Made by a program: the position numbers and the translations under genes
Shown here: positions 41,913 to 45,116 of the stretch, piece by piece
Numbering within the stretch: position 1 is the first letter of the stretch
How the letters are laid out: each line of letters starts with the position of its first letter
The notes under the pieces: model-generated
What the model saw: the letters and a program-made list of their open reading frames with translations, nothing else
Told to the model about the DNA's origin: nothing
Database searches by the model: none
Source of the DNA: Polytrichum commune
Taxonomy: Eukaryota; Streptophyta; Polytrichopsida; Polytrichales; Polytrichaceae
Assembly: GCA_950295325.1 (NCBI GenBank)
Contig: OX485804.1
Span: 12,898,001-12,962,000 of the forward strand
Length of the DNA: 64,000 bases
Direction: 5' to 3'

Positions 41913-41952
41913 CGCCACCCCAGGGGCTCGAACCCTAGACCACAAGGTTAAG
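41913..41952 (-). tRNA. 3' part (positions 34-73) of a split tRNA-Lys(CUU)
   Basis: On the minus strand this gives anticodon CTT, the 3' side of the anticodon stem (CCTTG), variable loop, T arm TAGGG-TTCGAGC-CCCTG, acceptor side GGGTGGC and discriminator G. The acceptor side pairs at all seven positions, with two G-U pairs, with GCCGTCC at 45116-45110. A six-T run (41903-41898) follows about 10 nt downstream and would serve as a Pol III terminator. Together with 45084-45116 it makes a complete 73-nt cloverleaf. Confidence 0.85.
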
Positions 41953-41959
41953 AGCCTTG
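41953..41959 (-). repeat. target-site duplication of the LINE (CAAGGCT)
   Basis: The seven bases CAAGGCT on the minus strand are repeated at 45090-45084, the other edge of the element, where they are tRNA positions 27-33. Confidence 0.8.
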
Positions 41960-42636
41960 TTGTAAAGACCTCACCGAGGTTAAAGTAAAAGAAAACCAAA
42001 TTACAACCCGCGAAGGGAGGACAGGGGCAGCCCTGACCGGGGGGGGGGACCCACAGAGGGCCCCGTGACGACCACCAAGGCGGTCACACAAACAAACCAA
42101 CCGGGCCACGAGGGCCATAACCACGAAAAACAAAGAAGGGAGGGGGGGGGGAGAGGCCCCCCAAACTCAGGAGGGTGGGACCCGGCCAAAGGGACGGGAC
42201 GGAGGGGGGAGAGCCGAGTTCACACCGCCCGCCCAAGCGAAAAGTCGAACGTTAGCTTGCTTTGACAGGCGACAACCGTGAGGACCCAGGGCGTCTCACG
42301 CTTCAGGGGATGGGAAGCCTGCAGCGCACGTGCGAGGAGAGCTGAAGCCGGACAGGCCAGGACCAGGGGCACTCGAAGGGACGCACGCCGAGAGGTGGAG
42401 CCTCCCAAACGAGTCCGAGGGCTGATGGGGGCACACCCGTAAGGCAGGGAGGGAGCTCAAGTGAGTGAGCGCCAAAACCCCAGCTTGTTCCAGGAGAGGC
42501 TTAGCTAGAGGGCGACTCTCAAGGCGGAAGAAAAAAGCGTGATGAAGCAGCCCAAGCTCAGGTGCGGCGAGGAGCTCGGCCGCAGATACCACTCTTTGCA
42601 GGGCGAAGTCCACGGACAGACTGACCTGGAGGAGTG

Positions 42637-43053
42637 TTAGTAGTCGTATGCGTCGAGCATGCTAATGCTCTCGGCGTCCCAGTTCATTTCGAAGTTGAAC
42701 CGGGCACTGCCAAGGTCAGCCGCCCATTTGAACATACCCAGCATTGACCCCGAGGTGAGCTCTTTGTCACAAAGCATGCGGTAGCATTCTTCCTTCGAAA
42801 GAGCGCGTTCTGAAGGACCGGCTTCTTGTTGAGTGTGGGAAGTGGAAGCTTGTTTCTCATCAGCCAGCTCCTGCAGGAGGTCTTCGACATCTTGTGTAAT
42901 TCGCTCTTCAAAGGTCTCGGCTGAAATCCCTAGCTTTCTCTGAATAAATTTGTAGGGGTCCTCGGTCGGGGCCGGTGCCGGCCCTGCTTTGACCTCGGGA
43001 TATATGAAGGTGGAGCAAGTGTGGTCCTTGCAGCCCCCTGGGGCAAGCCACAA
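42637..43053 (-). pseudogene. shifted-frame continuation of the LINE ORF
   Basis: 138 codons containing 'EDPYKFIQRKLGIS' and 'EERITQDVEDLLQELADEK', homologous to the two copies of the same module upstream but in a different frame. A one-base shift near 43045-43055 separates it from the main frame. It ends with an acidic-aromatic tail 'MNWDAESISMLDAYDY'. Confidence 0.75.
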
Positions 43054-45083
43054 GGATCATGGGGGTATCCGAGTCAGGATCTTCCGGCAGCCAGTTGGCA
43101 GAGACATCCCATCTGCGGCGGGGCATTCTGGTCCTGATCTGTGGCGTCTCCGACCGAGTCGTTGATCTACCCCTGCGCGCTTTCGGGCCGAAGTTGCATC
43201 GTCTTTTGGGTCTACTTGAAGGGTGTGGTCGTTTAGGGGCAGTAACCACAGTATCAACCCTCTGAGCAGGTGGCAAATTGATAGCAGGTTGGGTTTTTTC
43301 CCCAGTGCACTTCTTCTTTTTTCGGCTAGCGACCTTAATGCAGTTAGGACCTTGTTTAGCGCGTTTCTCCTCTGCAAGTTCTTGTAGAAGTTCCTCTATG
43401 TCCTGTGCAATTCGCTCTTCAAATTCTTGTGCTGAAATCCCTAATTTTTTATGTATAAATCTATATGGGTCTTCAACTGGAGCCGGTGGGGGCCCAACTT
43501 TATAACGATCGAGGGGTGTCCTCCTGGAGTGTGCAGGTGGAGCAAGGGTAGTTCTTGCAGCGAACCTGGTCGAGCCACAAGGTTCCTCAGCAGGATCTGA
43601 CTCCAGTTCATCAGGGAGTCGGTTTTCAGAGACGTCCCATCTACGACGTATCGTACTGGTCCTGGGTTGTTGCGCCTCAACCCTAGTCCTGGATCCGTCC
43701 CTACGTGTTCTCGGACCGAAGTTACAGCGTAGCTTAGGTCGGCTTCTAGGCCGAGGCCGATCCGGCGTAGCTCCCCAAATGGCAGCCCGTGGCGTGGGTA
43801 ACGAGTTGAGGGTTGGTTGAGCTTTTTTCCGGTGACACTTCCTCTTTTTGCGGCTAGTTACCTTGTTGGGGCAAGCCCCCAGGTGATTCAATTGCAATTC
43901 ATCCTTGTCGTTGTTGCCTTGAGAGGGAGTAGTGCTTTTGGATGGCGTTTGGTGTGGTGACGCTGGCACCTGGTATGACGACCCTTCCTCTGTCTCTCGT
44001 GTCTGTTCCCCGTCTAGTGGGTTGCCGCTTGGCACATCAGGGTCGATTTCCTGTTGACCAGATTGTGTTGCCTCCGGAGGAGGTGGTCTCCAGTTTGCGG
44101 CGATCCCTTGTAGAAAATCATCAATATGTTCCGCAATGTTAGGTTGTGCCATAAACTCTGCCTCGGGGTCCGGCGATGGTGATTGCCTGATGATCCTGAT
44201 TGGGGGAACCAACCATGCTTCCAGTTCCTTCGGTAGGAATTTTTGGTGTGGCGTCAGGTTCCATTTGATCTTGTCCCCATGTAGTCGGCCAAACACATTC
44301 GCCTTGGTCCAGGCTGTTTGGAAACATTCAATCGCTTCTCTTCTCTTTTCTTCGTTCCTTTGATGGCGGAACAACTCCTTATATGCCTCCATTGCACAAT
44401 ATATAGTGTTCCGCCAAGCGCTCCAAAGGACAACCCCCAAATGAAATGGTTCGTCCCTGAATGCAAGTTCTACCCTTTGGCACCATATGGCCCAGAGAGT
44501 GTTGGCTCGCAGGATGTCCCATGGGGTGTCTATGGTGAGTGTGAAGGCCGCTGCAGTGTCCCACTTGAGATCTTCTTCGACTCTTGGTCCGTCCGGTTCA
44601 GTCATAAGTCCGCGACTGATTTCTTTCCATGTGTGGAATGCAGGTGCAGACCCTGCACTTTGTCTGGTGTTCCGAAAGAGGTCCCATGCGCGGCTGACTT
44701 CAGGGCATTCTTGGAATGCGTGCTGGAGGGTTTCCTTGGCCCGATCTACACAAAGCTGACACTTATTCGGAAGGCCTATTTTCTCCCTCCAAGCGCCAAC
44801 TGGTAAGCCCTCTGTGAGAATTAACCACTGCATTGCCGAGACTTTTCGTGGGAGATAGGGATGCCAAATTCTGTTAAAGAACTTTGCTCTACTCTTGCTA
44901 TTGTATCCCTCCGCCTCCAATTCCACATCCACTCGCATAGTGTGATTGTTCTGTTTAAGAGCCACCCTGTACCCACGCTTTGTTGTGTAGTTAAGGATTG
45001 ATGTTTCAGCTAGTACCCCAATGCGTCTCCATTGCCACTCTTTGGGATCCCATTCCAGATTTCGAACCCACTCATTGCCCCAC
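42908..45083 (-). pseudogene. LINE ORF2 C-terminal part with zf-RVT domain and duplicated tail module
   Basis: An open frame of about 725 codons (first Met at 44965, 685 aa). The N-terminal part has the zf-RVT pattern: 'FFNRIWHPYLPRKVSAMQWLILTEGLP', then 'CQLC...ETLQHAFQEC'. This zinc-binding domain follows reverse transcriptase in plant LINE ORF2. The rest is Pro-, Arg- and Ser-rich and carries a repeated module: basic 'SRKKRKC', 'NFGPRTRR', 'RRRWDVS', then 'EDPYRFIHKKLGIS...EELLQELAEEK'. The module appears twice in frame. A third, partial copy continues in another frame after about 43050. It is a remnant, since the N-terminal catalytic parts are absent. Confidence 0.8.
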
Positions 45084-45116
45084 AGCCTTGCGCTCTACCA
45101 ACTGAGCTAGGACGGC
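45084..45116 (-). tRNA. 5' part (positions 1-33) of a split tRNA-Lys(CUU)
   Basis: On the minus strand: acceptor GCCGTCC, TA, D arm GCTC-AGTTGGTA-GAGC, G, anticodon stem CAAGG and loop bases CT. The internal A box (TAGCTCAGTTGG) fits the Pol III consensus exactly. The sequence stops at U33, directly before the anticodon, where the LINE begins. The missing half is at 41913-41952. Confidence 0.85.

Follow-up and report, generated by a model that had tools for sequence, protein, structure and literature searches.

A moss LINE, probably of L1 type, with an apparent but relaxed preference for one position in tRNA genes

What is a LINE doing inside a tRNA gene, and was that gene its target? In a 64,000-nucleotide stretch of the genome of the moss Polytrichum commune (contig OX485804.1; hereafter the window), one tRNA-Lys(CUU) is split by a LINE, and a preliminary description had placed the cut between U33 and the anticodon and raised the possibility of a site-specific plant LINE. 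Here we follow both the element and its target through the source genome (408 Mb).

Results

The two tRNA pieces lie on the reverse strand, nucleotides 1-33 at 45084-45116 and nucleotides 34-73, which begin with the anticodon CTT, at 41913-41952. Joined as the preliminary description had proposed, they are scored by ARAGORN as a 73-nt tRNA-Lys(CTT) whose acceptor stem forms 7 of 7 pairs, two of them G-U, and a T6 run that may serve as a Pol III terminator follows on the same strand (41898-41903). That description was thus exact in its coordinates, its acceptor stem (with the G-U pairs counted in), its T6 run and its LINE of about 3.1 kb between the halves, which is a 5'-truncated copy of 3124 bp with a zf-RVT domain and homologues among LINE proteins. 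The CAAGGCT duplications are also both present on the reverse strand, the 5' copy (tRNA nucleotides 27-33) at 45084-45090 and the 3' copy at 41953-41959, its first base being nucleotide 27 at the constant 3' junction; these 7 bp are not the full duplication, which measures 15 bp in the longest copy of the element. On the uncut window ARAGORN also calls a tRNA-Lys, at 41914-41983, in which LINE tail and tRNA 3' half are combined.

A 22-nt probe from the 3' half of the tRNA-Lys has 20 occurrences in the genome. Sixteen are uninterrupted genes, the same or almost the same in sequence as the window tRNA-Lys, which is therefore a genuine tRNA rather than, as the preliminary description had allowed for, a pair of unrelated tRNA-derived SINE pieces. 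The 33-mer of the 5' half is present in intact tRNA-Lys genes, and the 3' half differs from most genomic copies by one C-to-T change. Three of the 20 occurrences stand behind LINE tails with the junction at the same nucleotide: the window and two further loci on other contigs (L011/L020 and L019/L022). The outer flanks of the three differ, and because their LINEs share just 70-74% identity over the longest alignable blocks, they are separate insertions. All three loci surfaced through the tRNA pattern, not the LINE pattern.

What kind of element is this? The window copy (41960-45083, reverse strand, as are all its features) contains a 728-amino-acid open frame, read from stop to stop (42908-45094), that corresponds to the C-terminal part of the LINE protein and whose initial codons are supplied by the tRNA. 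Residues 67-137 form a zf-RVT zinc-binding domain (PF13966, E 5e-11; 44684-44896). The copy bears a frameshift, with the C-terminal end of the protein in another frame (42637-43056; by tblastn it resembles the end of P0005), and it holds two diverged copies of a C-terminal module, at 43358-43585 and 42847-43058, with 72% identity. The frame has 113 homologous proteins, some with a reverse transcriptase; P0113 alone was noted with both reverse transcriptase (PF00078) and AP-type endonuclease (PF03372). Copy L020 aligns to the first 419 residues of P0113 at 54%, L041 aligns to the reverse transcriptase at 75%, and zf-RVT is carried by the window copy and L022, so that the order AP-type endonuclease, reverse transcriptase, zinc-binding C-terminus is pieced together across copies rather than read from one intact element. 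Compared with solved structures, P0113 reaches 202 bits against human L1 ORF2p and 73 bits against R2. A frame of L020 weakly matches DUF4283, the plant L1-type ORF1 domain (E 0.0025, below the curated cut-off), and, as expected of the L1 clade, duplications of 14-19 bp flank six copies (L020, L035, L037, L039, L048, L059) and truncated copies occur. A restriction-like endonuclease is absent from the Pfam matches of the five proteins scanned, and a LINE protein stands where a Dada element would have a DDE transposase.

The element ends in a conserved tail, TTTAACCTCGGTGAGGTCTTTACAA (41960-41984), without poly(A), in which ACCTC and GAGGT are able to pair (41980-41968); in the window copy, the fold of the 101-nt 3' end does not exceed shuffled sequences in stability. 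The last 24 nt are kept in L020 and L022, both found by the tRNA pattern, and the preceding 3' UTR has diverged. Since copies in tRNA-Gly bear the same tail, we dropped the idea that the tail, which shares TTAACCT with tRNA-Lys, is a copy of that tRNA.

A search for this tail found 38 copies, with none for the reversed-pattern control; chosen by the 3' motif itself, they are a sample of well-conserved tails, narrower than the pattern AACCTCGGTGAGGTCTTYACA with 3 mismatches. Far from nearly all lying at one target, 10 occupy tRNA genes (three Lys, six Gly-GCC and one Glu; all sense to the tRNA), 8 are in tRNA-like sequence and 20 elsewhere (18 of 35 once likely duplicates are collapsed). The term site-specific therefore holds for the target nucleotide that copies share and fails for the 20 of 38 outside recognisable tRNA sequence, and the random, non-tRNA sites that would speak against targeting account for about half of the copies. 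A B box (at most 1 mismatch) lies within 70 nt of the tail on the sense strand in 15 of 38 copies, against 4 of 655 controls (Fisher p 2e-17), and on the antisense strand in 1 of 38 against 1 of 655; both strands pooled, 5 of 1310 control windows have one. Insertion into tRNA genes by chance is rejected by this enrichment and by the 9 tRNA matches observed where about 0.006 would be expected in 35 insertions under an assumed ceiling of 1000 tRNA genes. One copy classed as elsewhere, L033, has a B box in antisense.

The tRNA-like class is a weaker category, recognised by B boxes in 5 of 8 and by shared repeats. By the same mismatch test L031, L034 and L060 are without a B box, the score of L034 in the shared-repeat comparison falls inside the control range, and ARAGORN scored neither the L035 nor the L026 target as a tRNA. 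Repeats resembling tRNAs exist in this genome. Scans of plasmid, viral-contig and genome-contig collections gave no lead.

Where, then, is the target nucleotide? The constant point is the 3' junction, ahead of tRNA nucleotide 27 in 9 of the 10 tRNA-gene copies, comprising all three in tRNA-Lys(CUU) and all six in tRNA-Gly(GCC); in tRNA-Glu(CUC) the LINE ends 4-5 nt upstream of the corresponding position. Target preference, which the preliminary description had put forward as inference, is thus supported: tRNA-Lys was entered three separate times at a single nucleotide, and the corresponding nucleotide of tRNA-Gly holds six copies, which represent at least five events. Because the 5' junction varies among these copies, the boundary of U33 and anticodon is the joining point of the window copy and the anticodon loop is dropped as the target; the conserved cut lies between nucleotides 26 and 27, at the foot of the anticodon stem. 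The window copy was probably joined at that boundary through a GGCT microhomology.

Both tRNA halves were identified in five of the ten genes (window, L020, L022, L048, L058). The longest copy, L020, is a 7.2-kb insert with the 15-bp duplication CAAGGCTCTTAACCT, and its empty site scores as tRNA-Lys; in L048 a tRNA-Gly holds 91 nt of LINE end flanked by a 17-18-bp duplication, and the empty site is scored as a tRNA-Gly(GCC) that has an 11-nt intron; L058 is a 131-nt insert exactly at 26/27 of tRNA-Gly, and its empty site scores as tRNA-Gly. For L038, L041, L046, L047 and L030, the 3' half alone was found in the stretches examined; in L046 the LINE-like part seems to stop about 95 nt upstream, where a 5' half of the tRNA is absent. 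In the tRNA-Lys targets one base (A, T or G) is added between the shared LINE end and nucleotide 27. The bases at the nick vary by target (CAAGGC, GTACCC, GATACT), the D-arm side before it is alike in Lys (GGTAGAGCG), Gly (GGTAGAATA) and one tRNA-like target (GGTGGTTAG), and two non-tRNA insertions share the nick sequence, with CAAGG in L033 and CAAGGCT in L036. A tree of the tails does not sort cleanly by target.

Discussion

Very probably this is an L1-type LINE that has an AP-type endonuclease, integrates through target-primed reverse transcription and shows a strong preference for tRNA genes and tRNA-like sequences, in which it lies sense to the tRNA. Its preference looks strong yet incomplete, and directed to the border of D arm and anticodon stem. 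We envisage target-primed reverse transcription, sense to the tRNA, with a first nick that would fall just beyond the A box, where the D stem ends, on the strand complementary to the tRNA, and a second-strand cut some 15-17 nt further on, as L020 and L048 suggest. In shortened copies the 5' side may be joined with trimming, sometimes at short homologies, which would leave shorter or absent duplications. Given that the nick sequence differs while position and orientation are alike, the protein might recognise the gene by its A-box/D-arm side or by a Pol III factor that occupies this region. We tentatively suggest, as a reading that may well prove wrong, a plant L1 lineage that recognises tRNA genes as a class through either feature, cutting at or near 26/27 across tRNAs and tRNA-derived repeats and depending just loosely on the sequence of the nick site.

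Could sequence alone suffice? An endonuclease might read a longer word, for example around GGTAGAGCG and the CAAGGCT beyond the cut, that is multicopy in tRNA genes, as for R1, the Tx1-group and other site-specific LINEs. The similar D-arm sides of the Lys, Gly and tRNA-like targets favour this, as do the insertions at CAAGG and CAAGGCT outside tRNAs, and since those sites share the nick sequence, part of the effect may be plain sequence preference. Against it, Lys, Gly and Glu differ in the bases 3' of the cut, and a genome of 408 Mb should contain the CAAGGCT 7-mer about 25,000 times on each strand (by arithmetic, with equal base use), so that it alone is insufficient to explain three insertions among a small number of tRNA-Lys genes. 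We regard this as a serious contender that falls somewhat short of an even chance.

Alternatively, TFIIIC/TFIIIB or Pol III on tRNA genes might bring in the LINE complex and leave local sequence choice loose, as proposed for TRE5-A of Dictyostelium (precedent in the part of PMC5006619 cited here). Such tethering would fit the similar position and single orientation that the copies have both in different tRNA genes and in B-box-bearing tRNA-like repeats, but elements of that sort go beside tRNA genes, not inside, in the accounts excerpted from PMC5006619 and PMC3706591, and roughly half of the copies sit at sites other than tRNA sequence. We consider it slightly less probable than targeting by sequence alone. 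Ordinary L1 insertion followed by retention, with insertions in multicopy tRNA genes tolerated and surviving, is very improbable as a full account, though some retention bias may be at work: the copies at other sites, the L1-like duplications of 14-19 bp and the 5' truncation suit it, but it does not yield independent insertions at one nucleotide in one orientation (9 of 10 at nucleotide 27), nor a frequency about a thousand times expectation under the assumed tRNA-gene ceiling. That the split tRNA stems from a tRNA-derived SINE or from misassembly, an idea to which the genome's tRNA-like repeats lend some colour, can be dismissed on the empty sites, the match of both halves to 16 intact tRNA-Lys genes, the flanking duplications and the same junction at two more loci on other contigs.

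The NeSL clade is characterised by a restriction-like endonuclease, and Dewa, Mutsu and Keno belong to the Tx1 group, near L1. NeSL-clade and LIN elements, like the moss LINE, are non-LTR retrotransposons that insert in tRNA genes (NeSL-1_TV in tRNA-Pro, LIN15_SM in tRNA-Arg, LIN25_SM in tRNA-Glu; PMC4640811), and the abstract of that paper refers to elements of the restriction-like-endonuclease type, whereas a protein related to the moss LINE, P0113, combines an AP-type endonuclease with an L1-like reverse transcriptase. The zebrafish LINEs Dewa (tRNA-Leu spacer), Mutsu (5S) and Keno (U2) likewise target multicopy RNA genes, but Dewa occupies a spacer rather than the tRNA gene (PMC3706591, in part), and the moss LINE enters several tRNA genes in a relaxed manner. 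The dictyostelid TRE5/TRE3 and NLTR-A/B are also non-LTR elements seeking tRNA genes; their insertions fall beyond the gene, at distances of 2-6, about 50 or about 100 bp (PMC5006619, in part), whereas the moss LINE lies inside, at 26/27. Dada DNA transposons enter tRNA genes close to the anticodon or at nucleotides 8-13 and share tRNA-Lys and tRNA-Gly as targets, but they are DDE transposons with 6-7-bp duplications, oriented opposite to the tRNA around the anticodon (PMC8869645 and PMC3706591, both in part). Plant L1 lineages whose 3' end is of the stringent type have a conserved 3' end that can fold into a hairpin, as that of the moss LINE may; the sections of PMC3747384 cited here describe no tRNA-gene targeting for them. 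Most plant L1s end in poly(A), which the moss LINE does not.

In the literature consulted here, targeting of multicopy RNA genes is described from animals, amoebae and protists. Among the open-access papers that our searches listed we found no plant L1 inserting inside tRNA genes; such insertion is known there for other element types. The insertions also show tRNA genes being lost singly, as in 3 of the 20 tRNA-Lys 3' pieces in this genome. With its L1-type endonuclease, its relaxed targeting of several different tRNAs and its many insertions elsewhere, the element seems to stand midway between LINEs that insert at random and those that are site-specific, and the origin of target specificity therefore becomes directly testable.

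A tRNA-Lys gene split by a LINE

As the preliminary description proposed, a LINE splits a tRNA-Lys(CUU) gene on the minus strand of the window: the pieces at 45116-45084 and 41952-41913, once joined, are called by ARAGORN as a 73-nt tRNA. The 3131 bp between them comprise a 3124-bp LINE copy (41960-45083) and a second copy of CAAGGCT (41953-41959), bearing out the 7-bp duplication described earlier. Within the LINE copy, an open frame of 728 aa includes a zf-RVT domain, and a frameshift leads into an additional 139-aa frame; the C-terminal module is present twice, and the 3' end lacks poly(A). 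ARAGORN also reports a composite tRNA-Lys at 41914-41983, made partly of the LINE 3' end (the tail), which an annotation pipeline might mistake for a real gene. Elsewhere in the window, one U1 and three U6 snRNA genes cluster near the split tRNA, all on the minus strand (48386-50775 and 52532-52638), and a pair of mutually similar, apparently duplicated blocks (20141-22437 and 27042-28982) carries related open frames with Cys-rich, zinc-finger-like repeats.

A protein search (sources jgi, ena and lgn) returned 113 relatives; the LINE protein's anatomy is a composite assembled across several copies. One relative, P0113, combines an AP-type endonuclease with an RT, and its best relative of solved structure is human L1 ORF2p (202 bits, with R2 at 73 bits). 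Several relatives carry LWLWGN at the place that corresponds to the 5' joint of the window copy.

Other tRNA-Lys sites

The source genome spans 407.8 Mb in 64 contigs, with 406 of 408 Mb in seven of them. A 22-nt pattern from the tRNA-Lys 3' half, free of any LINE sequence, occurs at 20 places, all of which we inspected: 16 are whole genes, one is degenerate (L014), and three stand behind a LINE tail at the identical base, namely the window copy, C5:31.589 Mb (L011/L020) and C7:34.287 Mb (L019/L022). The 7.2-kb insert at L020 is preceded by tRNA nucleotides 1-33 plus eight further, duplicated nucleotides. The 4.15-kb insert at L022 has nucleotides 1-25 on its left, with G26 lost unless it is the final G of the LINE tail, and a whole tRNA-Lys lies directly upstream. 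Across the longest blocks that can be aligned (985-1243 bp), the three elements share 70-74% identity; alignment is poor in the 3' UTRs, but the final 24 nt are almost identical. In two of the three split 3' halves (window 41913-41952 and L011/L020) the T stem has T in place of C (GGTCTAGGG), a change absent from the other 18 of the 20 matches; it perhaps reflects deamination at a methylated CAG following silencing.

LINE tails across the genome

Does the element enter tRNA genes elsewhere? The LINE 3'-end pattern, at two mismatches or fewer and thus in a sample favouring well-conserved copies, occurs at 38 places (none for the reversed-pattern control), and all 38 flanks were inspected. The earlier suggestion of tRNA targeting holds in part, for 10 tails lie in tRNA genes and eight in tRNA-like sequence, but 20 lie elsewhere. 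The tRNA genes are three tRNA-Lys (window, L020, L022), six tRNA-Gly-GCC (L038, L041, L046, L047, L048, L058) and one tRNA-Glu-CUC (L030), and all 10 insertions run in the sense direction, that of the tRNA. ARAGORN names the joined tRNA at the window, L020, L022, L048 and L058; the other Gly copies were assigned by 3'-half similarity to tRNA-Gly (scores 61-72), and L030 was called Glu by eye from its anticodon, with cmscan giving a tRNA at 32.6 bits. Among the tRNA-like targets, L029 and L034 resemble tRNA-Gly, L026, L027 and L060 share one repeat, L031 and L042 share another, and L035 stands alone. Against the tRNA-Gly 3' half, the L029 flank scores 46, with the best control at 38 leaving aside one at 72, which we read as the neighbouring tRNA-Gly at L048; the L034 flank scores 32, within the control range. 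A common flank marks L049-L051 as one insertion, and common flanks and similar tails suggest that L046 and L058 may be one event; collapsing both leaves 35 places (nine tRNA genes, eight tRNA-like, 18 other).

With no more than one mismatch allowed, a sense B box follows 15 of the 38 tails at a distance of 24-38 nt (all 10 tRNA genes and, among the eight tRNA-like sites, five), compared with 4 of 655 control windows (p 2e-17); in antisense the counts are 1 of 38 (L033) and 1 of 655. The control windows were taken downstream in these loci, at a distance of 100-1300 nt, a range that at L048 includes another tRNA-Gly.

The tRNA-Gly(GCC) genes seem to have an 11-14-nt intron 3' of the anticodon, seen with ARAGORN at L048 (1389-1578 and 1792-1873) and L058 and by eye at L038, L041, L046 and L047; this would be unusual among land plants. 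Additional broken tRNA-Gly 5' halves lie near the LINE-split ones (L047:1851-1886, L048:885-906).

Position of the cut

Counting tRNA nucleotides backward from the anticodon, the shared LINE end ...ACA abuts nucleotide 27 (the G of GTACCCTGCC) in the six Gly copies, and a single base (A, T or G) separates it from nucleotide 27 (the C of CAAGGCTCTT) in the three Lys copies; the Glu copy joins before nucleotide 22 or 23. Both tRNA halves were found at five of the 10 genes (window, L020, L022, L048, L058) and the 3' half only at the other five, in the stretches examined. The 5' side varies, with duplications of 7 bp in the window, 15 bp in L020 and 17-18 bp in L048, none or a 1-bp loss at L022, and at L058 a 131-bp insert without duplication exactly between nucleotides 26 and 27, the D-arm/anticodon-stem border. 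Duplications of 14-19 bp occur at L035, L037, L039 and L059; the inserts at the last three are almost only the final 21-25 nt of the LINE, and L059 holds two such short tails in tandem with the same duplication.

In the target-primed model, the 3' junction is the site of the first nick. On that model the constant feature is therefore a nick before nucleotide 27, and the second cut would fall about 15-17 nt further. The anticodon-loop joint, originally offered as a possible sign of target preference, is not conserved. The window's 5' joint at U33 would be a product of trimming, helped by a GGCT that tRNA and LINE likely share there.

Relation to known elements and recognition of the site

Passages in the literature describe NeSL-related elements inside the genes for tRNA-Pro, tRNA-Arg and tRNA-Glu (PMC4640811), Dewa, which occupies a tRNA-Leu spacer, and Dada, which enters tRNA genes (PMC3706591, PMC8869645), TRE and related elements adjoining tRNA genes (PMC5006619), and plant L1 3' ends (PMC3747384). 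A LINE targeting tRNA genes is not named in the portions consulted of a 2025 review on where plant elements are located (PMC12477314), and the word tRNA is absent from the main text of an article about retrotransposons of plants and oomycetes (PMC5348765). Among the openly accessible papers listed by literature searches, none showed a plant L1 that integrates within tRNA genes.

How might the site be found? Two insertions outside sense tRNA sequence, L033 at CAAGG and L036 at CAAGGCT, count against strict targeting, as does the half of the copies at sites without tRNA features. The present data would fit either sequence reading or guidance by a protein partner. The bases 3' of the nick are unlike among Lys, Gly and Glu, and the D-arm side is alike (GGTAGAGCG, GGTAGAATA, and GGTGGTTAG in the tRNA-like L026). 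Together with the all-sense orientation, these comparisons favour a mode of recognition in which the A-box/D-arm side would be read, either directly or via a bound Pol III factor.
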